A stretch of DNA of 64,000 nt from Desulfobacterium sp. (GTDB lineage: Bacteria > Desulfobacterota > Desulfobacteria > Desulfobacterales > Desulfobacteraceae): the NCBI GenBank assembly GCA_030145245.1, contig JAQYWC010000067.1, positions 1-64,000 of the forward strand, given 5' to 3'. A program made the position numbers and the translations under genes. How positions within the stretch are numbered: the stretch's first letter is position 1; every line of letters starts with the position of its first letter. A model generated the notes under the pieces. That model was not told where the DNA came from. It worked only from the letters and a program-made list of their open reading frames with translations, and searched no databases. Positions 9,192 to 43,332 of the stretch are shown one piece after another.

Positions 9192-9298
9192 TGTTCCTCC
9201 TGGAATAATCATTGATTCAAATTGGCATATGCCAATAAGTCAAATACCGCTCCAGGACCAAACTGTCAACAAAAAAACCGGACCATGGCGTGCTAAAG

Positions 9299-9850: not shown

Positions 9851-9915
9851 GGTTACCTCCTTTTAGCTTCTTAGCTCCGATTTTCGTGTAATTTTGGCAA
9901 GAGAATCAAAGAACC

Positions 9916-10518
9916 TCAGGCTACCAGAACAATCTTTCCGGCAGCCCCATATCCCTTGAGCATTGTCTCGGTGGCACCCAGGTACTCCTCCTCCACCTCA
10001 AGGGTGTGGGTGGCAAGTTCGGTGTAAACGGTATCAATTACCCTTGCGCCATGCTCCTTTACGGCGTAGAGAAAGGTATCGTTAAAGGGGTAGGGAACCT
10101 CCACCACAAAATGTTCCAGCCTGACAAGCCGGGTGGGGGGTTCAAGGTCGGCTCCTGCCTGGACCGCCCCGGCATAGGCATCGATCAATCCCCGCTTTCC
10201 AAGTTTCACCCCTCCGAAATAGCGGGTCACAACCGCAACCACCTGGGTAAGCCCGTTTGTCGCAAGGGTGTTAAGCATGGGCCGGCCGGCCGTGCCCGAA
10301 GGCTCCCCATTGTCCGAACAATGGCTCATCTCCCCGGTTTCCCCCACACGATAGGCCCAGCAGTTGTGGTTGGCCTGCCGGTGTTGGGCGGATACAGCCG
10401 AGATAAATGCCTTGGCATCTGCAACCGTGGTAACGGGCTCAAGCACACAGATAAACTCGGACCGCTTGATCTTCATGGACACGGTCCTGCCATGGTCAAT
10501 GGTGTAAAAATCGCTCAA
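9916..10518 (-). CDS. yigZ: YigZ/IMPACT family protein
   Basis: KRSEFICVLEPV, HNCWAYRVGE, DNGEPSGTAGRPML, VVAVVTRYFGGVKLGKRGLIDAYAGAV. Confidence 0.9.
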   Translation of the reverse strand: MSDFYTIDHGRTVSMKIKRSEFICVLEPVTTVADAKAFISAVSAQHRQANHNCWAYRVGETGEMSHCSDNGEPSGTAGRPMLNTLATNGLTQVVAVVTRYFGGVKLGKRGLIDAYAGAVQAGADLEPPTRLVRLEHFVVEVPYPFNDTFLYAVKEHGARVIDTVYTELATHTLEVEEEYLGATETMLKGYGAAGKIVLVA

Positions 10519-10694
10519 TTAAACTCCTTTATCCCTTCTCTTGGCTGCAACATCATTCTCCTTGTTTGAGCGACCACGGTAACAAACCAGGCGGCCTAAG
10601 ACAATATTTTTCCGGCAGAACAGATCTGCCGCCTTTACAACGGTCAATGGGGACGATAGAGTTATAAAAAGGGAACCCCAGGGAACAACCGTCC

Positions 10695-12041
10695 ATGGAC
10701 ACCACAAAGATCCTCATCGTCGATAACGAGCCCATCATCCGGGAGTCGCTCTCGGGCTGGCTCAAACGGGACAACTGCCATATCCGGACGGCCCCGGGCG
10801 GCAAGGCCTGCCTTAAGATGCTGAAAAAGCACCGCTTCGACATCCTGCTGGTGGAGATCACCATGGACGGCATCACCGGCATGGAGGTGCTCAAGCATGT
10901 CAAGGAGTTCTATCCCGACATCGACGTGATCATGATCACGGCCTACGGCTCCGTTGCCTCAGCCGTGGCGGCCATAAAGGCCGGTGCCTATGATTATCTT
11001 TTGAAGCCCCTTGCCCCTGAGAAGCTGGGGGTGCTGATAGACCGGCTCATGGATCACCAGCGCAGGAAGCAGGAGAACCTCTTCCTGCGGGAGCAGCACC
11101 GGGAGCACACCCGGTTTGAGAGCATCATCGGCCAGTCCGCCCCCATGCAGGAGATTTTCAACCTGATCCACGATATCCGGGACTCAAGATCAACCGTACT
11201 GATCTCAGGCGAGACCGGCACGGGCAAAGGGCTTGCCGCCAAAGCGATCCACACCAACAGCCCGGCAGGCCAGGGGCCATTTGTGAACGTCAACTGCGGC
11301 GCCATCCCCAATCAACTCATGGAGAGCGAGCTGTTCGGCCACCAGAAAGGGGCCTTTACCGATGCAAAAGAGACCCGCAAAGGCCGCCTTGAGATGGCCA
11401 ACAACGGCACCCTCTTTCTGGACGAGATCGGCGAAATCAGCATGAGGATGCAGATCGATCTCCTCCAGGTGCTGGAGGATAAGATCTTTTACAAGGTGGG
11501 CGGCACCCAGCCCATCACCACCAACTTCAGGGTGATTGCCGCCACCAACCGGGACATCCACCTGGCCATGGAGAAAAAAAGATTCAGGAAAGACCTGTTC
11601 TACCGCCTCAACGTGATCTCCTTCACCATGCCGCCCTTGAGAAAGAGACGGGAGGACATCCCCCTGCTGGCAGACCATCTCCTTCAAAAATTCGTCCAGG
11701 AGACCAACAAGGAGATCCATGGGATCAACCGCAGGGCCATGGACGAACTCATGCTCTATGATTGGCCGGGCAATGTCAGGGAGCTCTCCAATGCCATTGA
11801 ACGGGCCGTGGTGGTGTGCAAGTGCCCCACCATCGAGGCCTGCCACCTGCCCATGGCCAAGCCCGATGGAAAACATCCCCCAAGGGAGAGCCTCACCCTG
11901 GAGGAGATCGAACAGGACCACATCGAGCTTGTGCTGTGCAGGAACCATTGGAATATCGCAAAAAGCGCTTCGATCCTCGGCATCGACCGCTCCACCCTCT
12001 ACAACAAGATCAGGAGATACTGCCTGAAAAAAAATGCCTGA
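10695..12041 (+). CDS. Sigma-54-dependent response regulator (NtrC family)
   Basis: Receiver domain, [29 protein letters not shown]-terminal Fis-type HTH ([23 protein letters not shown]). Confidence 0.95.
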
Positions 12042-26854: not shown

Positions 26855-27133
26855 AATGACCCTTTCCTCGGAGAATGTGTTCCGGAAGATGCGATGCCAT
26901 AACCATAACCTCTTTTCAGATGAATATAAAGGGAACGATAAAGGGGCGTCCCCAATTTCCACATTATTTGTATGCGTCCCTTGACAAAAAGCATCGTCCC
27001 ATCCTACCGTTAGACTTCTCTTGATAAAATGCATTTTCCTATCCTGAAAAATACGACGTGAAAGACTGTGAGGAGATATTCCCATGGAAATTTTTCATCA
27101 GGTCATGGATCTGATCAAGAAAGGAGAACGCCC

Positions 27134-28024
27134 ATGGCTGTAGCACGGGAATTTGAATATTTCAGGCCCGAAACATTGGAGCACTCGATCTCCTTGCTTG
27201 GGGAATACGGCGAAAACGCGAGGGTGCTGGCGGGCGGTACAGATATGGCCTTGAAAATCAAACAAGGTGTTGAAACACCCAAGGCCGTGGTCGATATCAA
27301 GGGTATCAGCGAGCTTGAACGATTGGAATCAACGGATAACGGTCTGCACCTGGGAGCGCTGGTTACATTCAGTCAGGTGATGGCTTCCGGCCTGGTTGCT
27401 GCAAACTTCCCCCTGTTACGGGATGCGGCCGCAACCGTTGGTTCCGTGGGTATCAGGAACCGGGCGACACTGGTGGGAAGCCTCTGTTCCGCCGTACCGT
27501 CACTTGACATCGGTCCGGCCTTGCTGGTCCATGAAGCCGTGGTTTTAACCCGGAGCGCAGGGGGTACACGCAAGACAGGGATCAACAAATGGTTCACCGG
27601 ACCGAAACAATGCGCACTGGAACCCGGGGAACTGGTCACCGGCATTGTTGTCCCCCTGCCCCCTGGAAAGGCTGGGGGATGCTATGTCAAGCGGGGGCGC
27701 TACGCCGGAAAAGATCCGGCCCAGGCCGGAGTGGGCATTCTGGCGATGGAAAAAAATGACTACCGGGTGGCATTCTGCGCGGTCGGCCCTGTGGCAAAAC
27801 GCGCTCCCTCCATTGAAACCTGCCTGCACGGACAGGAACTGACCGACCCGCTGATCAAAGCGGCCCAGGCACTCGTCCCCCAAGAGATCTCTCCCATCAC
27901 CGACATCCGCGCTTCAAAAGCGTATCGCACCCTGATAATAAAAGTCATGCTGGAGCGGGGGTTGAAAACCGCTGTGTCCCGTTTAAAAGGAAAACCCAGC
28001 GCACACGGCGCGATTTGGATATAG
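27134..28024 (+). CDS. Molybdenum hydroxylase FAD-binding subunit (CoxM/XdhB-like)
   Basis: YFRPETLEHSISLLGEYGENARVLAGGTDM, ATVGSVGIRNRATLVGSLCSAVPSLD. Confidence 0.92.
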   Translation: MAVAREFEYFRPETLEHSISLLGEYGENARVLAGGTDMALKIKQGVETPKAVVDIKGISELERLESTDNGLHLGALVTFSQVMASGLVAANFPLLRDAAATVGSVGIRNRATLVGSLCSAVPSLDIGPALLVHEAVVLTRSAGGTRKTGINKWFTGPKQCALEPGELVTGIVVPLPPGKAGGCYVKRGRYAGKDPAQAGVGILAMEKNDYRVAFCAVGPVAKRAPSIETCLHGQELTDPLIKAAQALVPQEISPITDIRASKAYRTLIIKVMLERGLKTAVSRLKGKPSAHGAIWI

Positions 28025-28033
28025 GAGTTTTGC

Positions 28034-28492
28034 ATGAAAAAAACCATCACATTGACATTGAACGGGGACGCAAGGAGCGTAGATGTTGAAACAACCGAGA
28101 CCCTGCTGGCTGTGTTGCGCAATAAGCTCGGTGTGAAAAGCCCGAAATGTGGCTGCGACCAGGGGGAGTGCGGCGCCTGCACCGTTCTTCTGAACGGTAA
28201 AAGCGTCAGAAGTTGCCTGATTTTCTCCGTTGAAGTTGACGGCCAGGAGGTTGTGACCCTGGAAGGCCTTTCCCATAACGGACCAACGCCCCTTCAGCAA
28301 GCCTTTATTGACCGCAGCGCGTTCCAATGCGGATACTGCGCCCCCGGGGTTATCCTCAGCGCCACGGAACTGTTAACGGTAAATCCCCACCCCACCCAAA
28401 CAGAAGTGCAGGAAGCGATTGCCGGCAACCTCTGCCGTTGCACCGGCTATGAATCCCTTATTGAAGCCATTCTGGCTGCGTCCCGGGAGTAA
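28034..28492 (+). CDS. Molybdenum hydroxylase 2Fe-2S subunit (CoxS-like)
   Basis: CGCDQGECGACTVLLNGKSVRSC, QCGYCAPG, NLCRCTGY. Confidence 0.96.
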   Translation: MKKTITLTLNGDARSVDVETTETLLAVLRNKLGVKSPKCGCDQGECGACTVLLNGKSVRSCLIFSVEVDGQEVVTLEGLSHNGPTPLQQAFIDRSAFQCGYCAPGVILSATELLTVNPHPTQTEVQEAIAGNLCRCTGYESLIEAILAASRE

Positions 28493-28499
28493 GGAGGCC

Positions 28500-30860
28500 A
28501 TGGAAGCCATGGAGGAATTGAAATTTGTTGGAAAACCAACGCCGCGAATTGATCAACAGGAAAAGGTCCTGGGAGCAGCCAGGTATGTGGATGATCTTGA
28601 TTTCGGGCCGAACCTGCTCCATGCCCAGGTGGTTGAAAGTTCCCTGGCCCATGCACGGATCAAAAAGATTGACACCTCCGAAGCAGAAAAGCTGCCAGGG
28701 GTGGTCAAGGTTGTCACGGGCAAGGATTTTCCCTACCACTTCGGGCTGTACATGCAGGATCGCCATATCTTTGCCCAGGACAAAGTCCGCTTTGCAGGCG
28801 AACAGGTGGCAGCGGTCATCGCCCGGGATCTTGCCACAGCCAAACGGGCGGCAAAACGGGTGAAAATCATCTATGAACCGCTTCCAGCGATCCTTGATCC
28901 CAGGGAAGCGGTTAAAAAGGATGCCACCCTGATTCATCCGGAACTTGGCGCCTATTCCCATGTGCCCTGGTTCTTTCCCAAACCAGGCAGCAACATCGCC
29001 CATTGGCGTAAGGTTCGCAAGGGTGATACGATTCAGGGCTTTGCTGAGGCGGACCTGATTTTTGCAGATACCTACCGGGTTCCCCGGTATGCCCACTGCA
29101 GCATCGAACTCCATGGCGCCATCGGGTTATGCGATCACAGCGGACGGATAACAGTGTGGGCCGCCTCCCAATCACCCCACACCCAACGCCATATTTTCGC
29201 ACAGGCCCTGGCGCCATTGGGATTTACCCACCAGAACCTGCGGGTGATAACCCCTTATGTGGGCGGCGGTTTCGGCGGCAAGGCCGGCGTAACCATGGAG
29301 ATCCTGGCAGCAGCCCTGCCCACCCTGGTGAAAGGGTATCCCATAAAGATTCACTGGACCCGGGAACAGGAATTCTACAACACCTATCAGCGTCCGGCCC
29401 TGGTCGGGACGTTGAAAATGGGCGTCAAAAAGGATGGCACCATCACCGCCTTTGATTATCTCATCCATTGGGACGCCGGCGCCTACGTGGAATACGGCGC
29501 CAATGTTGTCAATGCATCCGGGCTTTCCGCCACCGGTCCCTACCGGATTCCAAACGTCAGGATCGACGCCCTGTGCGTCTACACGAACCTGCCGCCGGGG
29601 GGTCCCTATCGCGGATTCGGCTACCCGGAGTTGCTGTTCGGCGTTGAATCCCACACCACCCGCATGGCGCAGCAACTGGGCATGGATGTGGTGGCTTTTA
29701 AACGCAAGAACGCCATCAGGGAGGGTGATAAACTGCCCTATGGCGCGCCCATGACGCCCAACGGCCTGACCGAATGTATTGACAGGGTGGTAAAGACCAT
29801 TGAATGGGGTAAAAAAGAAGAGCACAGCGACCCGAATAAGGCGATCGGGAAAGGGTTTGCCATCTTCTGGAAAGCCCCGGCCATGCCGCCCAACGCGGCT
29901 TCCTCGGCGTTCCTGAAATTCAATGAAGATGCCAGTGTGAATCTGCTGATCTCGGCCGTGGAGATCGGCCAGGGGGTTTTAACGGCCATGGCCCAGATTG
30001 CCGCCGAAATCCTGACCGTTCCCCCGGAGAAAATCCGGGTGGAATCCCCGGACACCGACCGGAATCCCTATGAATGGCAGACCGTTGCCTCCCATGTGGC
30101 CTGGGGCACCGGCAATGCGGTTAAACGCGCTGCCATAGATGCCCGGGAGCAGATTTTCGAGGCCGTTCATCACGCCTGTTTTCTTGAAAAGGACGCGCTG
30201 TACCTGGAAGATGAAGCCGTAAAATGCCGGACCCAACCGGGTTTTGCACTTTTATTGAAAGAGATTGTGATCAACGGCATCATGGTGGAAGACGGTACAT
30301 ACCGGGGCGGGCCCATCATGGGCCGGGGCACCTTCATGCCCCGGTTTACCTCCGCCATGGGCGATCCCGACACCGGCCAGGGGGGACATCCCTGCGTGCA
30401 CTATACCGTGGGCGCGGCCGCCCTGACCCTGGAAGTGGATAAGCAAACCGGACGGATGAAGGTGCTAAAAGCTGTGGAAGCCATCGATGCCGGCAAAGCG
30501 ATCAATCCGCAGATAGTAAAGGACCAGATTTGCGGCGGATTGCTCCAGGGCCTGGGCACAGTCCTGTATGAGGATATGCGCTTTGATGAAAGCGGCAAAT
30601 TGCTCAATCCCAACTTCACCGACTACAAGCTTCCCACGGCCATGGATATCCCGGATGAAGTGATTCCCATCATCGTTGAGACCCCGCAGGCGGACGGCCC
30701 GTTTGGCGCAAGGGGCATTGCGGAACATCCCACCATTCCGGCAGCGCCCATGGTGGCCAACGCGGTTTGCGATGCTGTGGGCGTCCGGGTCAAATCCATG
30801 CCGGTCACGGCGGAAAAGGTGGGGCTGGCCCTGGCTGCGGGCCAAACGGAAGTAGAATAG
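28500..30860 (+). CDS. Molybdenum hydroxylase large (molybdopterin-binding) subunit
   Basis: GGGFGGKAGVTMEI, GGPYRGFGYPELLF, GQGVLTAMAQIAAEIL, GARGIAEHPTIPAAPMVANAV. Confidence 0.95.
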   Translation: MEAMEELKFVGKPTPRIDQQEKVLGAARYVDDLDFGPNLLHAQVVESSLAHARIKKIDTSEAEKLPGVVKVVTGKDFPYHFGLYMQDRHIFAQDKVRFAGEQVAAVIARDLATAKRAAKRVKIIYEPLPAILDPREAVKKDATLIHPELGAYSHVPWFFPKPGSNIAHWRKVRKGDTIQGFAEADLIFADTYRVPRYAHCSIELHGAIGLCDHSGRITVWAASQSPHTQRHIFAQALAPLGFTHQNLRVITPYVGGGFGGKAGVTMEILAAALPTLVKGYPIKIHWTREQEFYNTYQRPALVGTLKMGVKKDGTITAFDYLIHWDAGAYVEYGANVVNASGLSATGPYRIPNVRIDALCVYTNLPPGGPYRGFGYPELLFGVESHTTRMAQQLGMDVVAFKRKNAIREGDKLPYGAPMTPNGLTECIDRVVKTIEWGKKEEHSDPNKAIGKGFAIFWKAPAMPPNAASSAFLKFNEDASVNLLISAVEIGQGVLTAMAQIAAEILTVPPEKIRVESPDTDRNPYEWQTVASHVAWGTGNAVKRAAIDAREQIFEAVHHACFLEKDALYLEDEAVKCRTQPGFALLLKEIVINGIMVEDGTYRGGPIMGRGTFMPRFTSAMGDPDTGQGGHPCVHYTVGAAALTLEVDKQTGRMKVLKAVEAIDAGKAINPQIVKDQICGGLLQGLGTVLYEDMRFDESGKLLNPNFTDYKLPTAMDIPDEVIPIIVETPQADGPFGARGIAEHPTIPAAPMVANAVCDAVGVRVKSMPVTAEKVGLALAAGQTEVE

Positions 30861-30881: not shown

Positions 30882-32126
30882 ATGATTAAGAAGCGTAAAG
30901 GTGCAGGATTTTTCCAGTGGCTTTTCATGCTTTCGTTGATCTTTTCCATCTGCGTATTTTCAACGGGAAAGGGCTTTGCCGGATCACGGTTTTCCTTCCT
31001 CGTTGTTGGCGATACACGCACCGAACCGTATATCACAGGCGGGCCCAACGAGCGGGATGGTATCCAAACAGTGTTCAAAAAGCGTTTCCAGGCCCCTTTG
31101 GAACTGTTCTTCGATGAAAACAGCCAGCAACTTGTTCGCGCCGTTCACAAAAAGGGGGAGGGCCATACCATCACCTTGAACTACCGGGACGGCTGGGTCA
31201 GCTCCATGGTTGAGAAGAATAACGGGAATAATCGGGTGATCATGCGGGATACCGGCCGAAAATGGGTCTTTGACCGGATCGTTGCAACCATCAGGAAGGG
31301 GGCCGCCGGCACTCCCGGCCACGCCCGGTTTCTTCTCCACGGCGGGGACATCCCCCTTTTCGGGTTCCAGGGAAAAACCCTGGACGAGAGTCCCTACTGG
31401 CAACTTTTTGAGGATGAGTTGCTGAATCGCCTGCCCCCTGCAGGAAAAGACCTCGGGCTGCCCGGCAGGGTGTTCGTGGCCGTGGGCAACCATGCCACAT
31501 GGGAGGACCCGGCAATCAGCGGCTTTACGACCACCTTACCCTGGCTGGCCGATCCCGGACTGTCCCGGGAGCGCCGGATCTATGCATTCTCCTTCCAGGA
31601 AAGCCGGTTTATCTTCCTGGATTGCGGAGACTACAGCTCCACGGGCACAGCATGGACCAGCCAGTTTCCGCCGTTTGAGGTTCAGATGGAATATCTGACC
31701 GGCCAGCTCAACCAGGCATGGCTTTCGGGAATAAAGAACGTTTTTGTGGTGTATCACAAACCCTCGTATGTAAAGGTCGGTCACGATCCCCTGCCTCCAG
31801 ACCAGAGTCCCCACAGGGTTTTCAGGGAATTCGCCGACAGGCTGAAGATCTGCGTGTTCAACAGCCATACCCACACAACCGAACAATACCGGGTGGACAA
31901 TATCGATTACCTGGTTCTCGGCGGCGGGGGCGCGCCCCAGAAGTTTACGCTCACCAGGCATCCCACAACCGAAAAGGAACTATACTGGAAGGGAAAAGAG
32001 CGGGTGGAAGAGTACAATTACCTGGAAGTCCGGGTAGACGGCCCCAATTTTAAAGCCCTGCTTCACAGGTTCCGGCCCACCCAACCCCAGAACCCCATGG
32101 GCGTGGTGGAGCTATTGACCCGGTAA
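30882..32126 (+). CDS. Secreted metallophosphoesterase
   Basis: Signal peptide; FLVVGDTRTEP, LHGGDIP, AVGNHATWEDP, VFNSHTHTTEQYRVDNIDYLVLGGGG. Confidence 0.85.
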   Translation: MIKKRKGAGFFQWLFMLSLIFSICVFSTGKGFAGSRFSFLVVGDTRTEPYITGGPNERDGIQTVFKKRFQAPLELFFDENSQQLVRAVHKKGEGHTITLNYRDGWVSSMVEKNNGNNRVIMRDTGRKWVFDRIVATIRKGAAGTPGHARFLLHGGDIPLFGFQGKTLDESPYWQLFEDELLNRLPPAGKDLGLPGRVFVAVGNHATWEDPAISGFTTTLPWLADPGLSRERRIYAFSFQESRFIFLDCGDYSSTGTAWTSQFPPFEVQMEYLTGQLNQAWLSGIKNVFVVYHKPSYVKVGHDPLPPDQSPHRVFREFADRLKICVFNSHTHTTEQYRVDNIDYLVLGGGGAPQKFTLTRHPTTEKELYWKGKERVEEYNYLEVRVDGPNFKALLHRFRPTQPQNPMGVVELLTR

Positions 32127-33902
32127 GAAGGCCTTTTCCTGTAACATTGGCTGACCCCCTGGGAAAAACATATGATCCACATAATATTCGGAAAAAGAAG
32201 GTAACGCCGAAAGCTCAATATATTCAGTGCGATCGATAATTGATTGCGCATGATCCCGGGCATTTTTTTCCGTAACATAACGCAGGGCGCCAAAGCCTGC
32301 CGCATTTCCAAGGACAGAGATCCGCGGCAAAAGCGCTTGGGGAATCAGTCCGATACGGACGGCACTTTCTGCCCTTAACGCAGATCCGAAACCGCCTGCA
32401 AGATAAAACGTATCAATGGCATCCGGTGAGATATTAGCTTGCCTGAAAAGAATTTCAATCCCGGCCCGGATGGCCGCTTTTGCAAGTTGAACCTCCCTGA
32501 TATCTTTTTGTGTGAGATAAACAGAGTCGGTAAACATCAATCCTTTTGTTGCATCCAACCGGTCTGCCAGGGGGCCTGAAGAGTCGGCTGACAGCGCGCC
32601 GGTTTCATCAAGAACATTCAACTCCAGGAGAAGTGCAACAGCATCCAGGACGCCGGAGCCGCAGATACCACGGGGAGCTATGTTTTCCATCACCGTAAAC
32701 CCGAGACCCGAGTCTGTTTGATCAACCGTATCGATCGCGCCGGCCTGGCCCGGCATTCCACAGGCGAGGGTCACCCCTTCAAAACAAGGTCCGGCGGCGG
32801 CAGAGCAGCAATAGAATGTATTGTTTGCAAACAATACGGTTTCTGCGTTGGTCCCAAAATCAATGAGAAGAAACGGTTCGGTTGCCTGGTGTGCCTCAAC
32901 AGCAAGAAGGGAAGCAACAATATCCGCCCCGATATAGGAAGAGATGCCAGGCATTAAAAAAGCAGGAGCAGCCGAAGAGATTCCAAGCTCTCCGGCATTT
33001 AACCGCATTGGCTGGGTGGTGATGGGACGAAAGGGTGCTTTTCCGATAAACTCCCCGGGCAGGCCGCAAACCATATGCATCATGGTTGTATTGCCTGCAA
33101 AACAGATCATGCTCACATCATCAAGATCAGCTTCATTCAACAAGGCGTGTAATATTTGATCAATCTGCCCGATGATTGCTTTTTGTACAAAAGAGGTACC
33201 TTTATCAATCGTGTGTTTTATCCTGCTGACAACATCCGCACCATAGGGATATTGAGCATTATGTTCTCCTTTGACACCAACAACATTTTGTCCGTACAGA
33301 TCAACCAGGGTTGCCGCAACCGTTGTCGTTCCGATATCAACGATCAAGGCATGGTGGTCTTTGGAACAGGAAAAGCCGAGAAGGGTATCGTCCTGTACCA
33401 GGGCATATCCCTGTTTGCTGGTCTCCTTCAGATCTTTCAGAAAATAGGGCAATCGTGCCTGTTGCTGCAGCGTCAGGCCATGGCGCCTGACATGACTGCC
33501 ACGGAGCAGGCGTTCCATATCTGTTTCCGGAAAATCACCGGGCGACGGAGAAAGTTCGAATCTTTTCTTTGAGATGGCAGGCGTAAAATCATACGCTTTT
33601 CGTGCAAACGAGGAGAGGACGCAAAGTGAACTTTTATTCGGGAGTGTGATTTCAACTCCTTCCTGGGCCCGGGTATGACACCCAAGGCGAAGTCCGGAAT
33701 CGATGGCCGCCTGCCCGAGCTTAGAGATCTCTTCATCACACGGGGTCGTATTGGCATGGATAAGACATTTTCCGCATTTACCAATGCCGCAAGGGAAATC
33801 CAGCAATCCATGACCTTGCAGCAAAGGGGCAATGGGATCACCCGCTTCCATCCAATATATCTTCTCTGTTGTTTGATCAAAGATCTTTATGGCGATTTTC
33901 AT
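32112..33902 (-). CDS. Corrinoid activation protein (RamA/DUF4445-like, N-terminal 2Fe-2S domain plus ASKHA-type ATPase domain)
   Basis: FPCGIGKCGKCLIHANTTPCDEE 2Fe-2S motif; LIVDIGTTTVAATLVDL; GTNAETVLFANN; GSGVLDAVALLLEL; FYLAGGFGSAL. Confidence 0.92.
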   Translation of the reverse strand: MKIAIKIFDQTTEKIYWMEAGDPIAPLLQGHGLLDFPCGIGKCGKCLIHANTTPCDEEISKLGQAAIDSGLRLGCHTRAQEGVEITLPNKSSLCVLSSFARKAYDFTPAISKKRFELSPSPGDFPETDMERLLRGSHVRRHGLTLQQQARLPYFLKDLKETSKQGYALVQDDTLLGFSCSKDHHALIVDIGTTTVAATLVDLYGQNVVGVKGEHNAQYPYGADVVSRIKHTIDKGTSFVQKAIIGQIDQILHALLNEADLDDVSMICFAGNTTMMHMVCGLPGEFIGKAPFRPITTQPMRLNAGELGISSAAPAFLMPGISSYIGADIVASLLAVEAHQATEPFLLIDFGTNAETVLFANNTFYCCSAAAGPCFEGVTLACGMPGQAGAIDTVDQTDSGLGFTVMENIAPRGICGSGVLDAVALLLELNVLDETGALSADSSGPLADRLDATKGLMFTDSVYLTQKDIREVQLAKAAIRAGIEILFRQANISPDAIDTFYLAGGFGSALRAESAVRIGLIPQALLPRISVLGNAAGFGALRYVTEKNARDHAQSIIDRTEYIELSALPSFSEYYVDHMFFPGGQPMLQEKAFLPGQ

Positions 33903-34048
33903 AGCATACGGTTTGTTCCGGAACTTGATTCCAAGCGGGTCAGGATCATCACAGGGTCCCTAGGGAAAGCCCATGACCACAACAGGAGAACCGGAACTCC
34001 TTTATACGAAGTTCCGGTTCTGCCCGATAAACGTCACAGGATAAAATC

Positions 34049-34696
34049 CTATGCATGTGCCAGGGCACAGATCTCCAAAGCTTTTGCTGCCGCAGTCGGC
34101 GCGTCCGGCGTATAATAGTCTGCGCCAACAGACTCACAGAAATCCGCATTGATGGGAGCGCCACCGACCATCAGTTTTACTTTTCCTGCAATGGAGCTGT
34201 TTGCAATACTTGCCACAACATCCTTAATATGTACCATGGTGGTTGTCAGCAGCGCAGAACAGGCAATCACATCCGCATTGTTCTCAATGGCCGCTTCAAC
34301 ATATTTTTCAGGTGCCACATCGGTTCCGATGTCAATCACATTAAGGCCTTTGCTCTCCATCATCATGCGAACAAGATTCTTTCCAATGTCATGGAGATCA
34401 TCCTTGATGGTTCCGATAACAACGGTTCCTTTGGATTTAACATTTGCACTGACCAGTAATGGACGCAGCATGTCTGTTCCCACCGACATGGCACGGGCGG
34501 CAATAAGGACTTCCGGGATAAAGATATCATTATTTTTAAACCGCTGGCCAATGACATCCATTCCAGCCATCAAGCCGTTATCCAGAATATCCTGGGGGGA
34601 AATTCCTTCGTCAATCGCCTGCTGGACGAAAACTTTCACTTCCGCCATTTTACCTTTTTGCAAATTTTGAGATATATCTTCAAATACTGTGCTCAT
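34049..34696 (-). CDS. Corrinoid-binding methyltransferase protein (MtbC/MttC type)
   Basis: GTIKDDLHDIGKNLVRMMMESKGLNVIDIGTDV (DxHxxG cobalamin motif) and helical N-terminus. Confidence 0.95.
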   Translation of the reverse strand: MSTVFEDISQNLQKGKMAEVKVFVQQAIDEGISPQDILDNGLMAGMDVIGQRFKNNDIFIPEVLIAARAMSVGTDMLRPLLVSANVKSKGTVVIGTIKDDLHDIGKNLVRMMMESKGLNVIDIGTDVAPEKYVEAAIENNADVIACSALLTTTMVHIKDVVASIANSSIAGKVKLMVGGAPINADFCESVGADYYTPDAPTAAAKALEICALAHA

Positions 34697-34717
34697 AATA
34701 TGTCCTTCCTGATTTTG

Positions 34718-35611
34718 TTATCGCTGAATAAGTCCCTTGATGAAAAATGCATCCCGGACCTCTTTTAATGTTCCTCGCATGCAGATAATGGTAAGGGGGG
34801 CCAACGCAGTTTCCGCTTCCCTGACTTCAAATCCCCTGCCCGTATCTGAGATATAATAATTCTTCCGGCCGCATTTGATATACCCTTTTACCCTGAGTAT
34901 CTTCCCGTTTTCCTTCAGGGTCTCCAACAGTTGCTCCGGCGGCACCGCAATCTGGGAGATGGTAAAACTTTCCGGCCGGTTGTCCTTTGTGTTCAAGCTG
35001 CCGATATGGAAGCTTTCCCGATGTTCTTCACATACCGACAGGATATTTATGTCGGATTTTTCTTCTATGATACCCACATCCTTATTAATGCTTTTAAGGT
35101 ACGCTTTTGCGGCACTCTTCTCTTTTTCAGAGGTGATATCCCCCTTGGTCAGCAGCACCAGGTCCGAAGCCCTGATCTGCCGGGGAATCACTTCAAGAAC
35201 ATGGGAAAGTTTCACGCTTTTTATGGGGTCAAATGCACAGATCGTACAAAGGTGCTCAAAGTCGGATTCAAGATGAGCATTGTTCAGCAGAAGATGCATG
35301 CCTGCAGGGTCCGCCATGCCGGAGGCTTCGATAAAGATCAATTCCGCAGGAGATGTTGCCAGGTGCAGAAGCGCTTTTACAAATGACTCTTTCAGGCAGG
35401 CGCAAAAAATGGACCCCCCGCCGATTTCCAGGATCGCCTCATCCGGCACCTCGGCGTTTCGAATAAGGGTTCCGTCCACAGGGATCTCTCCAAAGTCATT
35501 CAGCAGAACCCCGACTTTATAGTGGGCATATTGATTCAGAAGGTGACGGAGAAGCGTGGTTTTCCCACTGCCTAAAAAACCACATAGTATAATAATTTTT
35601 TTCTTCTTCAT
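34718..35611 (-). CDS. CobW/P47K family GTP-binding protein
   Basis: CGFLGSGKTTLLRHLL P-loop, IEASGMADP, GGGSIFCACLKESF. Confidence 0.9.
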   Translation of the reverse strand: MKKKKIIILCGFLGSGKTTLLRHLLNQYAHYKVGVLLNDFGEIPVDGTLIRNAEVPDEAILEIGGGSIFCACLKESFVKALLHLATSPAELIFIEASGMADPAGMHLLLNNAHLESDFEHLCTICAFDPIKSVKLSHVLEVIPRQIRASDLVLLTKGDITSEKEKSAAKAYLKSINKDVGIIEEKSDINILSVCEEHRESFHIGSLNTKDNRPESFTISQIAVPPEQLLETLKENGKILRVKGYIKCGRKNYYISDTGRGFEVREAETALAPLTIICMRGTLKEVRDAFFIKGLIQR

Positions 35612-35674
35612 ATTTTCCAGCCTTCAATTTTACAAGGCGACCCCACACCCAGCGGTATGGGGTCGCCTGAATCG

Positions 35675-37033
35675 CTACTTTTGAGATGCAAGAACAATCT
35701 CTTCCCGGAGCTGCTCCACGGTTGGAATAAGAGAAACATGTTTTATCTCACCGTTGATAACGATGGAAGGCACATTTTTCAATTCGATTTTATTCATGAA
35801 ACTGATGTTTTCAGGATACATGATAGACCGTTCAACCACTTCGACCTTTACATCGCCGCAGATGGCCTGGGCATCATTTGCAGCTTTCACCATATAACCA
35901 CATGCCGCACATGTTTTGGAGTCAATACTGACAACCTCCACAAGCACATGGTCAAGGCTCTCATAGTCAGGCAGGTCGATCTCAGGAAGGTTGTCTTTGG
36001 CAGTATAGTTCTCAAGGGCTTTTTTGACTGCCTCCCTGTTATGAACCGCCTGACCCACCCCGATCAAGTTGGCTGCCGGAGCGTCAAACGGCACATCACA
36101 GCCGGGAGCAAGTATAAACAAATGGGTCCCCATTTTTTCCATGAGCTCAATGGCTTCTTTCTGGTTGTCCTGCTGGGTTCCCAGAAGCATGGTGATGGTA
36201 AGCTGTAAATTTCCGGACATGGTAATGCCATACTTGTCCGTGACTTTTTTGGCTTCAACAATGTCAACATTTTCATCAATGGCAATGCAGCCGGGGGCTG
36301 TTTTGCACATGGGTTCTATATTCTTTGTTGCGTCTCCGCATACAAAGAAGGAGGACGGAACGCCCTGCTCTTTTATGGAAGCGAACAGACGGGAATAGGG
36401 TTCACTCAAAAATGTTTCAAACATATCCGGTGAAATCTGAGAAACAAGGGGATCTACGGCTGCAATAATATCGCACCCGGCTTCAATGTAAAATTTTGCA
36501 AGGTCGGCAACAACGTCTGCGCAGTAATTGACAAGCGCTTTTACCCCTTCCTCATTATCATACATATCCATGAAGATATTGGTCCCCCGAAGGTGGGAGG
36601 CCAGGGTAAATGGGCCGCAAACCAGACCATACATGGCCACATCCGGCTTTGCCGCTTTAAACCGGCGCATGACATCCAGATTCAGCGGGATACGGCCATC
36701 GGTTTTCTCCAGCCGTTGTGTCGGGATCACAAGTTCCGAACCGCTCAGGGGATGGGTGCAAACGGTCGGGGGGGTATTCTTATACCAGGTCAGGTCACAT
36801 CCCAGGATTTCAGCCTCAACCTGCAGGTCGAAAATGGGGGGCATGCCATCCGGCGTATATTGCTCTTCTGCTTCGATCAGGCATTCAAGGAGTTTATCCG
36901 CAGATTTGAATATCTCTTCTGCCGTATATCCTTTCAGATTTGCAATTTGAGAACCTGTGTAAGGAACCCAGGGACACCGTTCAACCGTTTTTCCCTGGAG
37001 TACATCTAAAATAAGTTGTTTTCCTGTCATCAT
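35675..37033 (-). CDS. Uroporphyrinogen decarboxylase-family (MtaA/MtbA-like) methyltransferase fused to C-terminal thioredoxin-like domain
   Basis: UroD-type N-terminal region (VERCPWVPYTGSQIANLKGYT, LVCGPFTLASHLRG, IIAAVDPLVSQISPDMFETFLSEPY, PGCDVPFDAPAANLIG) followed by VEVVSIDSKTCAACGYMVKAAND...ELKNVPSIVINGEIKH. Confidence 0.88.
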   Translation of the reverse strand: MMTGKQLILDVLQGKTVERCPWVPYTGSQIANLKGYTAEEIFKSADKLLECLIEAEEQYTPDGMPPIFDLQVEAEILGCDLTWYKNTPPTVCTHPLSGSELVIPTQRLEKTDGRIPLNLDVMRRFKAAKPDVAMYGLVCGPFTLASHLRGTNIFMDMYDNEEGVKALVNYCADVVADLAKFYIEAGCDIIAAVDPLVSQISPDMFETFLSEPYSRLFASIKEQGVPSSFFVCGDATKNIEPMCKTAPGCIAIDENVDIVEAKKVTDKYGITMSGNLQLTITMLLGTQQDNQKEAIELMEKMGTHLFILAPGCDVPFDAPAANLIGVGQAVHNREAVKKALENYTAKDNLPEIDLPDYESLDHVLVEVVSIDSKTCAACGYMVKAANDAQAICGDVKVEVVERSIMYPENISFMNKIELKNVPSIVINGEIKHVSLIPTVEQLREEIVLASQK

Positions 37034-37080
37034 TCTTTCCTTTTATCTCCTGTTACAATCAGTACGCTTTGACTACCGGA

Positions 37081-38673
37081 TCAGTTCAGTTTGCTGGTCT
37101 CAAGCAGATGGGATGATAGTTTTTCCAGAAGCGCCTTTTCCTGGGCTTCCTCATACTTTACCTGTTCTTTCTTTAGCGTCTTGAACAGGGAAACCACCAT
37201 AAACCAGACCATGGGGAGGAATGGTGCACCGGCCAGAATCCCGGCAAACTTGACCCCGTCAAGCCCGTTTGTGTTCAACAGAACAATGGAGATCGCTCCA
37301 ATGATGAGTCCCCACAAAAGAACCATGCTCTTTTTGGGCTCCAGGGCGCCATAGGACATCTGCATGGCGATAAAGAGAGACGCAGCATCCGCAGATGTGA
37401 TCAGGAAACCTGCCACGCTGAGAAAGATGAGACAGTTAATGATAACACCACCGCCAAAAGCTGCGGCAACCGCATAACTGCCCTGGGCGGGATTTATTTG
37501 AACCTGTGCCCAGATATTTCCGATCTGGTGTGCATCGAGAAATTGAGTTGCCGTCATCAAAACGCCAAACCAGACAAACGAAACACAAACAGGGATAAAA
37601 AGAACACCGAGTACGAACTGCTGAATGGTTCTTCCACGGGAGATACGGGCGATAAACCCACCTACAAAAGGCGCCCATGAGATATTCCACAGCCAGTAGA
37701 AAATAGGCCAGTCATAGGTCCAACCGTCTGAGAGGTTTTGGGTGTCAGTAAACAATGCCATGGTAAAGAAATGGTTCAGATACTGACCAATGGTTTCAAC
37801 CATGCCATTGAGTAGCAGGACTGTGGGTCCGGCAAAAAGGATAAAAAGGAACCACGCCACAGAGACCCAGACATTACCGGTACTGATCAGCTTGATTCCC
37901 TTGTGCAGTCCTGAGTAGGCTGCAAGGGTATATGCAATAATAATGGAAAACATGATGATTGCGTTGCCCCAGAGACCGACCTCGATACCGAAAATATTTT
38001 TCAGGCCGACACTGAAAAGCATCAACCCAAGGCAGTTGGCGGCAGCAGCCCCCCAGAGAGCGGTGATGGAGGAGATAATTTCAGCAATTCGGCCCCAGAC
38101 AGTCTCTGATGCGTTTTCTCCGAGCAATCCATAAAAGGCACCGGAAACCGTCATCGGCCGTCCCAGGCGGAATGCCGGAAACGCAATCGCCAGGCCGACG
38201 ATGGCATAAATGGCCCACTGGTGAAATCCCCAGTGCAGCATTGCAGCACCTTTTGCTACAAGGTAAGCGGATTGAGTGCCCGACTCTGCAAGGTAAGGCG
38301 TCTTATAAAAGTGCCACAGAGCTTCCCCAAAAGGCCAGAAGACATATCCGGCACCCAGCCCGCAGCCAAACAATAATGAGATCCAGGCAAAGGTAGTGAA
38401 TTCCGGCCGGTCGTCATCTTTTCCCAGGCGAAGGTCCTTATATTTACCAAAGGCAAGGAAGAGCAGCAGGGGAATAAAAATAAACACGCTAAGAATAAAA
38501 AACCAGCCGAATTTATGGCCAATAAAGTTTTTAGCACCTTTCATCACTTCCACAAACCCGGTGGCGTCCGTTGCCGCCCAGACAAGGGAAAGAAAGGTAA
38601 GTCCCAGTGTAACCCAAACAAGTAATTTATCGATCGAACCACGTTTGTCGATTGTTTCAGCTTTAGTTTCCAC
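37081..38673 (-). CDS. BCCT family transporter
   Basis: Multi-pass; WISLLFGCGLGAGYVFWPFGEALWHF, MLHWGFHQWAIYAIVGLAIAF, PIFYWLWNISWAPFVGGFIARISRGRTIQQFVLGVLFIP. Confidence 0.95.
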   Translation of the reverse strand: METKAETIDKRGSIDKLLVWVTLGLTFLSLVWAATDATGFVEVMKGAKNFIGHKFGWFFILSVFIFIPLLLFLAFGKYKDLRLGKDDDRPEFTTFAWISLLFGCGLGAGYVFWPFGEALWHFYKTPYLAESGTQSAYLVAKGAAMLHWGFHQWAIYAIVGLAIAFPAFRLGRPMTVSGAFYGLLGENASETVWGRIAEIISSITALWGAAAANCLGLMLFSVGLKNIFGIEVGLWGNAIIMFSIIIAYTLAAYSGLHKGIKLISTGNVWVSVAWFLFILFAGPTVLLLNGMVETIGQYLNHFFTMALFTDTQNLSDGWTYDWPIFYWLWNISWAPFVGGFIARISRGRTIQQFVLGVLFIPVCVSFVWFGVLMTATQFLDAHQIGNIWAQVQINPAQGSYAVAAAFGGGVIINCLIFLSVAGFLITSADAASLFIAMQMSYGALEPKKSMVLLWGLIIGAISIVLLNTNGLDGVKFAGILAGAPFLPMVWFMVVSLFKTLKKEQVKYEEAQEKALLEKLSSHLLETSKLN

Positions 38674-38712
38674 GAATAGTTCCCAACTGATAAAATTTAT
38701 TTACAACAAAAA

Positions 38713-40137
38713 TCAACCATTGTTTTTGACAAACAAGTCCAGTTTTTCTTTGATGGCGTCATCCAGATCCGGCTTGGAGAATTCCCTTACAAGCTTCTCT
38801 CCTCTTTCCCGGATGGTATCGATCAGAGGCTTTTTGCCATTGGTATACCAGGCTTCCAGTCCTTCCCGGTAACAATAGTCCGGCTGCCAGGTTGCTTGCC
38901 GGCAATTTAATGCCGTGTGCATGTTGGTGAGGTATTCGCCACCCGGTCCGACCTCTTTGATCACATCGAGGGCCAGGCCGTCTTCGCTCAGATCGATTTT
39001 GGTTCGCATGGCTTTTGCGTAGCCGCAGATCTCATCATCCATAACAAGTTTGTTAAAAGATGCCGCCAGGTAAGAAGAGAGACAACCGGAACTGTGCTGG
39101 ATGAAATCAGCCCCAACATCCATGGCGTTCAGCGTGGCACTCATGGATTCAAACCCTGCCTGGGCATCGATGTCGCAGGCTTCCGTAAGCGCGCCGCCCC
39201 CCCGGCAAGGCAGGCCATAATGATGACCCAATTGCACGCCGGCTCTTATGATCTTGGAGAATTCAGGCGCACCTAAGGAGACAACAACAGAACGCATATC
39301 CATGATGCCGGATGCGCAGCCATAGATAACCGGCGTACCCGGAGAGACCAGCTGGGCAAGCACAATCCCCGCAAGCACTTCTGCATTCTGAAGGATTAAA
39401 ACACCGCCCATTGTCACAGGACCGGTGGCTCCGCCCGTAACAAGGGAAGCAATCAGCATGGGCTGCCGGTTCTCGGCAAACGCCATTAACGCTTCACAGG
39501 AGTGCTTTTCATACCGGAGGGGGGTAAGGCTGTTAATCAGAGAGATTGAAAAAGGATTTTCTTTCAGGTACTCCCGGTCACAATCAAAAAGGATCTCTCC
39601 CATTTTCATGCAGTCCTCCACGCCTTTTGCCCCCTGGGTGCTGCTTCCCATAAAGGGTTTATCGGAATGGGTCATGGAAGTGTAGAGCATGTGGATATGT
39701 GCTTTTTCCGAAGGGATGTCACTGGGATCGCAGAGTAAATACCCGACCATATCCTGGTTTGGAAGCTCATGGGACAGGGCGGTAAGGGTCTTGTAATCCT
39801 CCAGGGTCCCCCGGCGCATATTGCCTTCAAAATCAACAACATAGGGAGGGCCGTAGATCGGTGAGAAAACCGGATTTTCACCACCGATAACAACATTCCT
39901 CTCTTTGTTGCGTGCATGAACCGTAAACGAGGAAGGACATGCCTTTAACGCCCCGTTAACCTGTTCTTCTGTAAAAAAGACAGTATCGCCATCGACTTTA
40001 AAGTTATTCTCTTTAAAAAGTGCAATACTGTCTTCGGATAAAAATTGAATTCCCGTCGACCCAAGCAGGTCTAAGGTTGTGGAATGGAGAGTCTCTATTT
40101 CTCCCGGGGTTAACGCCCACATCGGTTGTAACGCCAT
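38713..40137 (-). CDS. MttB-family trimethylamine/quaternary-amine methyltransferase (non-pyrrolysine, glycine betaine methyltransferase-like)
   Basis: LDLLGSTGIQFLSEDSIALFKENNFKVDGDTVFFTEEQVNGAL, GPPYVVDFEGN, DAQAGFESMSATLNAMDVGADFIQHSSGCLSSYLAASFNKLVMDDEICGY; single 474-aa ORF with no internal stop. Confidence 0.92.
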   Translation of the reverse strand: MALQPMWALTPGEIETLHSTTLDLLGSTGIQFLSEDSIALFKENNFKVDGDTVFFTEEQVNGALKACPSSFTVHARNKERNVVIGGENPVFSPIYGPPYVVDFEGNMRRGTLEDYKTLTALSHELPNQDMVGYLLCDPSDIPSEKAHIHMLYTSMTHSDKPFMGSSTQGAKGVEDCMKMGEILFDCDREYLKENPFSISLINSLTPLRYEKHSCEALMAFAENRQPMLIASLVTGGATGPVTMGGVLILQNAEVLAGIVLAQLVSPGTPVIYGCASGIMDMRSVVVSLGAPEFSKIIRAGVQLGHHYGLPCRGGGALTEACDIDAQAGFESMSATLNAMDVGADFIQHSSGCLSSYLAASFNKLVMDDEICGYAKAMRTKIDLSEDGLALDVIKEVGPGGEYLTNMHTALNCRQATWQPDYCYREGLEAWYTNGKKPLIDTIRERGEKLVREFSKPDLDDAIKEKLDLFVKNNG

Positions 40138-40746
40138 CTGAACAATTCTCCTTTATTTTATGGATGAACTGCAACCGCCCTTGCGATTCAGCTCTTTCCC
40201 CCTTCTGACAAGGGGTACCGCCACTTTTCCAAGCAGACGGGTTGCCGGTTTTGCCGACCAAATAATAAAGGGGTAAACCTGTGGATTATCCCCTTATTGT
40301 TTGGTACCTGGGATGAAAGTTGAACGGGTACAGAAACAAGGATATAGGAATGACAAGTCCCTTGCGCCTGGCTGTTACTTTCCCCAGATAAAAAAAAATC
40401 CACTTTAAGTTATGTAATTTGAGAGTTTTTTCAGGATCGGATTACTTTTTGCCGAGAACCACCAAACAATTCAAATTGCAACCATTTTTTTGTCACTTGC
40501 CCGTCAACAATCAGACTATCCCCAAGGCGTTAACAAGCATACGCGATCTATAAATTATTTGCTATTTTTTATCAAGCGAAAAAATTAATAACTGAATAAG
40601 TCTCTTAGTTACGATGTTCCATCTGGGAAAACACCATTCGAGTAAAACCGCTCCGGACAAAAAGGCAAACCCTTGAAAGCACAGCACATACAAGACAAGA
40701 ACCATCTGCAGCCCCTCCCGGAAATCTGGCAGAGCCAAGGCGCCAC

Positions 40747-40850
40747 GATGCGTTATCGCATCAAAAAATACCCCTCGATGCGATTTCGCATCACAACTAT
40801 TTTGCGATGCATTATCGCATCAAAATTGCTCTGCGATGCGACAGTGCATC
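40747..40850. repeat. Array of four 16-bp palindromes GATGCRNNNNYGCATC with 29-30 bp periodicity
   Basis: GATGCGTTATCGCATC (40747), GATGCGATTTCGCATC (40777), GATGCATTATCGCATC (40806), GATGCGACAGTGCATC (40835). Confidence 0.9.
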
Positions 40851-40863
40851 AAAGAAAAGCTGG

Positions 40864-41778
40864 TCAAAGAGAAAAAATAGAATCCTTCCACTCCGGAAGC
40901 GGTTTGAAGAATCCCTGGGCCGAAAGGGCGCGGTGGAGAACAGTCAGCTCACAGGTCAGATCCCCGGCCGGAGTAAAGGAGTAGTCATGCAGGGCCATGG
41001 AAGCTCGCAGAACCGGTGCTTTCAACCCCAGAACCGATTCCAGCAGGGTTACGGAGGCATCGGTATCCAGGGACGGATAGAGGGATGACAGCCGGTCCAG
41101 GAGTCCGGTGATCTCCTCTTTATGACCATGGGCCCAGGTTTTATCCGCCAGGATGACGATGGGGAACCCCATGCCGTCCACCCGGAGGGAGGTCAGCACC
41201 CGTCCGAACCCATTTGCCACGGCAATTGACGGTGTGGGTTCGCTTGCCACGATGGCGTCCACTTCTCCGGCCGCAAGGGCGTTCAGCTGCAGGCCGGGCT
41301 TAAGATCCAGAATGTTGCCGGTGAGCTTCACCCCTGTTTGCTTCTCCACCAACAGAAGCCCTCCGTGGGTGGAGGTGCCCCTTTTAACTGCCAGCTTCCG
41401 TCCCGTCAGATCCTCCAGGGAGGAGATGGACGTATCTTTTGCGGAAACCACAATTCTGTGGCGTCCCGGACCAGAGGAATGACTGCCGATCAGAACAAAC
41501 CGCCCGGGATACCGGGAGAGCACCTGCAACGCCGTCGTATCTCCCATGGTGGCCATGTTTACACTACCCGTAACAAGGGCCTCGGCGGTTTCCGGGCCTG
41601 ATGAAAAGCGTTTCCAGGAGTAGGGGGCTTTTCCTCCTGCCCCACCCTCTGCCATGAGAATAAAGGGAACATCTCCGATCCTGTCCTGGTAGGCAATGGA
41701 AACCTCGTTGCCGGAAGAACAGGAGAACAACAGTGGCAGCAGCAGCAGTAGTAGTTTGATGGTTTTTTTAAGTTTCAT
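40864..41778 (-). CDS. ABC transporter substrate-binding lipoprotein (SsuA/TauA/NMT1-like)
   Basis: Lipoprotein signal LLLLPLLFSCSS; VNMATMGDTTALQVLSRYPG, LTGRKLAVKRGTSTHGGLL, LAAGEVDAIVASEPTPSIA. Confidence 0.85.
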   Translation of the reverse strand: MKLKKTIKLLLLLLPLLFSCSSGNEVSIAYQDRIGDVPFILMAEGGAGGKAPYSWKRFSSGPETAEALVTGSVNMATMGDTTALQVLSRYPGRFVLIGSHSSGPGRHRIVVSAKDTSISSLEDLTGRKLAVKRGTSTHGGLLLVEKQTGVKLTGNILDLKPGLQLNALAAGEVDAIVASEPTPSIAVANGFGRVLTSLRVDGMGFPIVILADKTWAHGHKEEITGLLDRLSSLYPSLDTDASVTLLESVLGLKAPVLRASMALHDYSFTPAGDLTCELTVLHRALSAQGFFKPLPEWKDSIFSL

Positions 41779-41782
41779 TCAG

Positions 41783-42556
41783 TCAGTCTCTTTCCCGGCA
41801 GGATGGACAACAAAGCTCCATGGACCGGATAATCTCTTTTTTTAATGTTAGAAAATCAGGAGAATCAAGTTTTTTCTGGGCTTCCCTTAAGTCCCAGCGT
41901 TTAACCAGTCTGCCCGGACGGGCGGACAGCAGGAGGATTTCCGATCCAAGACGGATCGCCTCCTCAATGGAATGGGTGATAAACAGAATGGTGATGTTTT
42001 CCCTTTTCCACAGATCTGCCAATTCCTGATCCAGCCTGTCCCGGCTGCGCTCATCAAGGGCGCTGAAGGGTTCGTCCATGAGCAAAAGAGAACCGGACAG
42101 GGCCAATCCCCTGGCAATGGCTGCTTTCTGCCGCATCCCCATGGAAAGCTCCGAGGGATAGGCCTGGTCAAATCCCTTCAGCCCCACCAGGTCCAGCAGG
42201 CGCCCGGCTTCCCGGGCAGCATCGCTGCCGTTGTGTCCGCTCTGCCCCAGGGCCAGCAGCAGATTGTCTATCACACGCATCCAGGGAAACAGGCTCTCTT
42301 CCTGAAACACCACCGCACGTTCCCGTGAGACGGTTGTTACGGGTTGTCCGTTAAAGGAGATCTGGCCGTGGGTCGGCCGGATGAATCCTGCGGCCATATT
42401 TAACAGGGAGGACTTGCCCGAACCGCTCGGCCCCAACAGACAGGTAAAACTTCCCTTTTCAAGGGAAAATGAGACAGAATCCAGGGCATGGACCTTGCGT
42501 TTTCTTTCTGCTTTATACCAGTGGGAAATAGCGTCAAAACTCAGAACTTTGCTCAT
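41783..42556 (-). CDS. ABC transporter ATP-binding protein (SsuB/TauB-like)
   Basis: GPSGSGKSSLLNMAAGF, ELSMGMRQKAAIARGLA, LLMDEPFSALDERSR. Confidence 0.94.
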   Translation of the reverse strand: MSKVLSFDAISHWYKAERKRKVHALDSVSFSLEKGSFTCLLGPSGSGKSSLLNMAAGFIRPTHGQISFNGQPVTTVSRERAVVFQEESLFPWMRVIDNLLLALGQSGHNGSDAAREAGRLLDLVGLKGFDQAYPSELSMGMRQKAAIARGLALSGSLLLMDEPFSALDERSRDRLDQELADLWKRENITILFITHSIEEAIRLGSEILLLSARPGRLVKRWDLREAQKKLDSPDFLTLKKEIIRSMELCCPSCRERD

Positions 42557-43332
42557 CCGTTCAGTCCTCTTTTGATTCTCAGGGACCGTTCCAGGGGTTC
42601 AAACAGGAATTTTTCAAAGGCCAGTCCGAAAAGGGCGATCAGGCAGATAAATGCCAGGGCGGAAGTAAAATCCCGGGTCCACCGGGCCTGAAGAATGCTG
42701 AATCCCAGCCCCTGGTTGGTACCAACGATCATCTCTGCGGCAATCAGAACCCGCCAGGCAGCAGCGAATCCCAGGCGGATGCCGGTCACCAGTCCCGGGC
42801 TGACAGCGGGCAGATAGATGCGCCACAGGCTTGTCAGGGGGCTCAGCTCCATCATGGCGGCAACCCGCCTGAACACCACGGGGATATCCCTTACAGCAGC
42901 CTGGGTGTTAAAGACAACCGGCGGCAGGGCGGTCATGGTGATCATGAACACGGTGGCTCCTGACCCCACACCAAAAAACAGCAAAGCCACAGGAATCCAT
43001 GCCATCCCCGGGATGACCTGGAGAATCGACAACAGCGGCAGCAGCAGGTGTCGGAGCGTCTCAAACCGGCCGGTTCCTATTCCCAGGGGGATTCCCACAA
43101 GGAGACCCGTCAGGAGTCCTTTGAACCAGAGGGACAGGCTGCTGGCCAGATGCTCCCACAGGGTATGCCCATAGATGGACTCTCCGGCGGAAAGCGCTTT
43201 CAGGCGGATCAGCACATCCAAGGGTCCTGGAAAGGGCACGGTTCCCCGGTAATGACTCACAAGCCGGGCGCCCAGCGCCCAGAGGAGGAGGAAAAATAAT
43301 ATACCGGCTACGGAGAGCAAAGAACGCTTCAT
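42553..43332 (-). CDS. ABC transporter permease (SsuC/TauC-like)
   Basis: HLASSLSLWFKGLLTGLLVGIPLGIGTGR, EAA-type loop VFRRVAAMMELSPLTSLWRIYLPAVSPGLVTGIRLGFAAAWRVLIAAEMI. Confidence 0.93.
   Translation of the reverse strand: MKRSLLSVAGILFFLLLWALGARLVSHYRGTVPFPGPLDVLIRLKALSAGESIYGHTLWEHLASSLSLWFKGLLTGLLVGIPLGIGTGRFETLRHLLLPLLSILQVIPGMAWIPVALLFFGVGSGATVFMITMTALPPVVFNTQAAVRDIPVVFRRVAAMMELSPLTSLWRIYLPAVSPGLVTGIRLGFAAAWRVLIAAEMIVGTNQGLGFSILQARWTRDFTSALAFICLIALFGLAFEKFLFEPLERSLRIKRGLNG

Follow-up and report, generated by a model that had tools for sequence, protein, structure and literature searches.

Among the closest described relatives of the locus reported here are the MtgB/MtgC systems of Desulfitobacterium hafniense and Methanolobus vulcani B1d, which combine a non-pyrrolysine MttB with an adjoining betaine carrier and a cognate MtgC-like corrinoid protein, and use MtgA (MtrH family) or MtaA as the second methyltransferase. 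A pyrrolysine trimethylamine (TMA) operon has been described in the gut sulfur bacterium Bilophila (PMC7593587), and the second methyltransferase step of bacterial TMA systems was called uncharacterised in 2021 (PMC8318568). The UroD-type methyltransferases MtaA/MtbA and Mlp (PMC10418091) have the UroD fold, with Cys ligands at HxC and APGC, and their genes are associated with those of a corrinoid protein and an activase.

The locus was found in a window of 64,000 nucleotides (the whole stretch of DNA that was analysed) from a Desulfobacterium sp. genome. Like the MtgB/MtgC systems, it encodes an MttB of the non-pyrrolysine type whose predicted pocket is the same as theirs, an adjoining carrier and an MtgC-like corrinoid protein; its MttB is 42% identical to the D. 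hafniense MtgB (DhMtgB). Unlike them, it has a UroD-thioredoxin fusion (UroD-Trx) where they use MtgA or MtaA, and it adds a CobW GTPase. Compared with the pyrrolysine TMA cassette of Desulfovibrio, the corrinoid protein (about 70% identity), UroD-Trx (73-77%), CobW and the activase are homologous, whereas the window MttB is non-pyrrolysine and 28% identical, a BCCT carrier is present, and DUF1638 and the pyl genes are absent. UroD-Trx shares the fold, the Cys ligands and the gene association of MtaA/MtbA and Mlp but has Phe for the His ligand and a C-terminal thioredoxin (Trx) domain, and scores below every family cut-off.

The original prediction of a six-gene, minus-strand corrinoid demethylation locus held up, as all six ORFs are intact and their Pfam and NCBIfam domains match it (Table 1). 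The genes are separated by 39, 47, 63, 21 and 146 nt, and because of this spacing they are consistent with a single operon. Scans for promoters and terminators in front of MttB gave no excess over shuffles, and the window contains no tRNAs and no Rfam families above the gathering cut-off. The gene content and domains also support the suggested function of the locus, which would be the import and corrinoid-dependent demethylation of a quaternary amine.

Table 1. Genes of the locus, with their proposed roles and the evidence for each assignment
Feature	Position	Strand	Evidence
MttB-superfamily non-pyrrolysine methyltransferase, 474 aa; proposed quaternary-amine:corrinoid MT1	38713..40137	-	Pfam MTTB
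BCCT-family carrier, 530 aa; proposed substrate importer	37081..38673	-	Pfam BCCT, solved relatives, motif
UroD-thioredoxin fusion (UroD-Trx), 452 aa; proposed MT2	35675..37033	-	Pfam, NCBIfam, AlphaFold2 model
CobW/COG0523-type GTPase, 297 aa; proposed metallochaperone	34718..35611	-	Pfam cobW, motifs
Corrinoid protein, 215 aa, MtgC/MttC-like; proposed methyl carrier	34049..34696	-	Pfam, NF047996, motif
RACo/RACE-type reductive activase, 596 aa; ferredoxin motif and ASKHA domain	32112..33902	-	Pfam, NCBIfam

The corrinoid protein carries the B12-binding (4e-23) and B12-binding_2 (7e-20) domains of Pfam and a DLHDIG cobalamin motif. It scored 202 bits against the MtgC family NF047996 (cut-off 370) and is 71% identical to its counterpart in a gut Desulfovibrio TMA operon. 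CobW matched Pfam cobW (117 bits, 9e-34) and has the P-loop GFLGSGKT; its metal motif is CACL, kept as CxCL in the clade, where the COG0523 criterion is CxCC, and FCxCL in place of CxCC is common to the cassette CobW proteins. The activase, predicted to be RamA-like, is indeed a corrinoid activase (Pfam Raco_middle 5e-43, RACo_C_ter 9e-68), but of a type known from bacteria, RACo/RACE. Two features give it this label: the N-terminal ferredoxin motif C-x4-C-x2-C-x28-C (residues 38-75), and the fact that RACo chains are the only relatives with a solved structure. Its scores agree, with 307 bits against AcsV/RACo and 123 bits against the RamA family TIGR04270 (two C-terminal 4Fe-4S clusters; cut-off 500).

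MttB, the carrier and the likely substrate

MttB matched Pfam MTTB with 420 bits (9e-126; family cut-off 25). The ORF is uninterrupted and has no in-frame amber codon, Leu317 occupies the pyrrolysine position, and PylS was not found in the whole genome of the window (best match 33.5 bits, cut-off 178). A pyrrolysine reading is ruled out by the absent amber codon and the absent PylS, and the expectation of a non-pyrrolysine enzyme is thereby confirmed. The protein is a singleton, with about 43% identity or less to the sampled members of the phylum and order.

The best solved relative of MttB is DhMtgB (2qne, 9yce; 403 bits), for which docking predicted a glycine betaine pocket of Y94, N199, R309, H345 and F/Y353 (PMC6855144). 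Loss of the substrate pocket had been named beforehand as an outcome that would speak against the locus acting on quaternary amines; all five predicted positions are kept in the window protein, as Y95, N202, R312, H348 and Y356. The same residues occur in other Desulfobacterota homologues, and the pocket pattern is therefore not specific. The identity table of this comparison was used with the zero cells of rows L043, L045 and L047 left out. Arg312 and His348 stand at positions predicted to contact the betaine carboxylate, and these two residues are Tyr and Phe in the amber-codon TMA enzyme. As there is no amber codon and no PylS, and the pocket is conserved, our best guess for the substrate is a carboxylated quaternary amine, and among these glycine betaine or a close betaine. 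Of the substrates first suggested (glycine betaine, proline betaine, carnitine or choline-like), choline-like compounds, which have no carboxylate, would probably fit the pocket less well.

The carrier matched Pfam BCCT (456 bits, 1e-136). Among solved structures it comes nearest to a trimethylamine transporter (294 bits), followed by BetP (275 bits). In its WW-I-x-W motif, Asn is found at one position that is aromatic in the other BCCTs compared. These traits could weakly complicate the betaine reading.

Three further MttB loci of full length occur in the genome of the window, and all of them encode a corrinoid protein together with a protein of 266-269 aa. Pterin_bind matched all three of the 266-269 aa proteins, and the one that was scored is a MeTr-type methyl-THF:corrinoid methyltransferase (329 bits, cut-off 259). 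UroD-Trx is present only at the window locus among the four. The MttB gene on contig C39 was considered as a pyrrolysine gene and rejected, as its apparent in-frame TAG lies upstream of the start codon.

The UroD-thioredoxin fusion and its relatives

UroD-Trx consists of a URO-D domain (1e-55) followed by a Thioredoxin_3 domain (7e-6) with CAAC at residues 375-378. The best PDB match of its confident AlphaFold2 model (pLDDT 92.5) is the methylcobalamin:CoM methyltransferase MtbA (4ay8; TM 0.89 on target). In this protein family, a thioredoxin domain is fused to the fold of a corrinoid methyltransferase. Its scores are below all curated cut-offs, at 155 bits for TIGR01463 (cut-off 235), 124 bits for MtaA (400) and 117 bits for MtbA (600). 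Of the His-Cys-Cys zinc coordination of MtaA/MtbA, the two Cys ligands are present as Cys232 and Cys312, and were seen in all relatives examined apart from several that encode the Cys312 position as UGA. The His of the HxC motif is replaced by Phe230, and the classical zinc site is therefore incomplete. Because of the lost His ligand, the fused Trx domain and the UGA-containing relatives, UroD-Trx is, judging from its sequence, not a standard MtaA/MtbA, and the MtaA/MtbA-type reading first suggested does not apply to it in simple form.

The in-frame UGA lies exactly at the position of the second Cys of MtbA (APGU) in the UroD genes of loci L024, L025 and L027-L031. These relatives are split, with a UroD gene that is followed in some loci by a separate CAAC thioredoxin-like gene. 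They look like a candidate selenoprotein family; SelA was found in each of the 20 genomes searched for it, that of the window among them, which is permissive and does not discriminate. An MtrH-like protein is encoded near UroD relatives without a fused Trx domain in L035, L036 and L037 (UroD plus a separate Trx gene in L036, UroD in the other two), therefore the UroD protein of these loci probably acts on something different. In L036, Trx genes and a flavoprotein resembling thioredoxin reductase are encoded as well. At L036 7616-12180 and L037 9750-12826, the MtrH-like gene and a large gene were observed near the UGA-containing UroD; in L036 the large gene encodes a GltD/NuoF-like flavoprotein, and two Trx-like genes are found there.

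In a genome scan, UroD-Trx was 73-77% identical in metagenome-assembled genomes (MAGs) of gut Desulfovibrio and Mailhella. Four gut Desulfovibrio loci (L007, L008, L010 and L011) have the gene run UroD-Trx, CobW, corrinoid protein, DUF1638, activase and MttB, with the pyl genes on the other side of the cassette and PylS in the genome. In L007, the pyrrolysine position of MttB is encoded by an in-frame TAG, and the protein scored 491 bits against the TMA family (cut-off 525; partial). The window locus thus shares its genes for the corrinoid protein, UroD-Trx, CobW and the activase with the pyrrolysine TMA operons. The best-conserved members are UroD-Trx (77%) and the corrinoid protein (71%), in spite of an MttB identity of only 28%, which is consistent with UroD-Trx acting on the corrinoid protein.

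UroD-Trx is the sole UroD protein in the four gut Desulfovibrio MAGs. Neither MtrH nor any other stand-alone THF-type methyltransferase (MeTr) was found in them, an absence that is provisional as these are MAGs, and the two pterin-binding proteins of each genome are FolP- and MetH-like by score and length. As it is the sole UroD protein and no stand-alone MtrH or MeTr was found, the second methyltransferase of the gut TMA systems is most plausibly UroD-Trx, the only candidate found. TMA is the precursor of TMAO, and its removal in the gut is important for this reason; taken together, the window locus and the related gut loci make UroD-Trx a specific, testable candidate for the uncharacterised TMA step. 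A full-text literature search found no paper joining UroD, thioredoxin, corrinoid protein, methyltransferase and CobW.

Genomes of another family of the window's order carry one to three copies of UroD-Trx. Two loci of that family (L070 and L078) contain MttB, BCCT, corrinoid protein and UroD-Trx and come near the window arrangement, and a third (L072) has the run UroD-Trx, activase, MttB, corrinoid protein, CobW and DUF1638. UroD-Trx genes without a nearby MttB were found in L075, L076, L077 and L079. In L079, from a genome of the same genus, UroD-Trx and CobW (9054-11308) lie downstream of genes that look ABC-importer-like from their sequence beginnings, with no MttB or corrinoid gene near them.

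Proposed mechanism and its alternatives

We propose that the locus is an acquired quaternary-amine demethylation operon with UroD-Trx as MT2, and we put the probability of this whole scheme at roughly 60%. The BCCT carrier would import a carboxylated quaternary amine, and MttB would transfer one of its methyl groups to the Co(I) corrinoid protein. UroD-Trx would then take the methyl group from the methyl-corrinoid protein into one-carbon metabolism, with tetrahydrofolate (THF) or a thiol as the acceptor, THF being slightly favoured on metabolic grounds. The RACo-type activase would re-reduce Co(II), CobW would probably supply the metal of the module (Zn or Co), and the Trx domain could keep the Cys/Cys site reduced or supply the thiol. 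Gene content, folds, motifs, the composition of the island and the cassette held in common with the pyrrolysine TMA operons are established here, whereas we infer the substrate, the methyl acceptor and what CobW and Trx do; the MT2 role of UroD-Trx draws on genomic and structural inference. The scheme is weakened by the Phe in place of the zinc-ligand His of MtbA, by the three MeTr-type enzymes at the other MttB loci, which could serve instead, and by the UroD-Trx genes that have no MttB nearby.

With UroD-Trx still acting as MT2, sulfide, homocysteine or some other low-molecular thiol could take the place of THF as the acceptor. The Cys/Cys site (Cys/Sec in relatives) would then bind or activate the thiol, and the Trx domain would keep the site reduced. 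Methyltransferases of the UroD superfamily whose zinc site is Cys-Cys have S or Se as their target (PMC10418091), and this family chemistry favours a thiol, as do the Trx domain, the MtrH-like protein (the expected THF-side enzyme) near UroD in L035-L037, the flavoprotein and Trx genes of L036, and the use of MeTr enzymes at the other MttB loci of the genome. However, the methyl group would be wasted if sulfide were methylated, the gut Desulfovibrio genomes would be left without an identified route from TMA to THF, and the characterised bacterial quaternary-amine systems deliver methyl groups to THF (PMC8604678). Metabolic logic and the gut genomes favour THF, and a thiol acceptor is a possibility that we take seriously but doubt. 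We consider it rather unlikely, and offer it as speculation, that UroD-Trx is an undescribed class of MT2 serving both pyrrolysine TMA and non-pyrrolysine betaine systems of sulfate-reducer-type bacteria, which would pass the methyl group to a thiol rather than to THF, with the classical His missing from its Cys/Cys (or Cys/Sec) site, its own Trx as reductant and a metal loaded by a dedicated CobW GTPase.

Alternatively, UroD-Trx might not be the MT2 but assist the corrinoid cycle in redox or repair, and transfer of the methyl group to THF would then fall to one of the three MeTr-type enzymes encoded at other places in the genome. The lost His ligand, the fused CxxC Trx domain and the UGA at the second Cys of relatives would suit such a role, but MtbA is the best fold match of the predicted structure, an activase is already encoded in the locus, and the gut Desulfovibrio cassettes occur in MAGs without a stand-alone MeTr or MtrH, which makes this role improbable. 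We give equally little credence to a substrate resembling that of the gut relatives, in which a different methylated amine (TMA or something choline-like) would replace the carboxylated betaine. The nearest solved relative of the carrier, the Asn in its motif and the TMA methyltransferases of the closest cassettes all point in that direction; the predicted carboxylate contacts of the non-pyrrolysine MttB, which the TMA enzyme replaces with Tyr and Phe, and the lack of PylS in the genome argue for the betaine. The Moorella MtaA was tried as a UroD-type precedent for transfer to THF and dropped, as a recent paper puts its methanol MtaA1 at 29.7 kDa, smaller than a UroD protein.

Origin of the locus and its flanks

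The locus has a G+C content of 47-52%, and most kilobases on its flanks have 55-62%. At third positions, G+C is 0.47-0.56 in its genes and 0.61-0.69 in the flanking genes measured. In the tree, the window UroD-Trx clusters with Desulfovibrionaceae (95/93), apart from the copy in a genome of the same genus (G728), to which it is 47% identical. By its composition the locus is a low-G+C island, and we read it as horizontally acquired.

Four copies of a palindromic repeat of about 30 nt (GATGCGxxxxCGCATC), spaced 29-30 nt apart, were observed at 40734-40851, between the island and an SsuA-type ABC gene set. This set comprises three minus-strand ABC transporter genes (40864-43332), and its substrate-binding protein scored 100 bits against the SsuA family, below the cut-off of 163.5. 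On the other side of the island, three plus-strand ORFs at 27068-30860 resemble, on inspection by eye, a set for a CoxM/CoxS/CoxL-type molybdenum hydroxylase.
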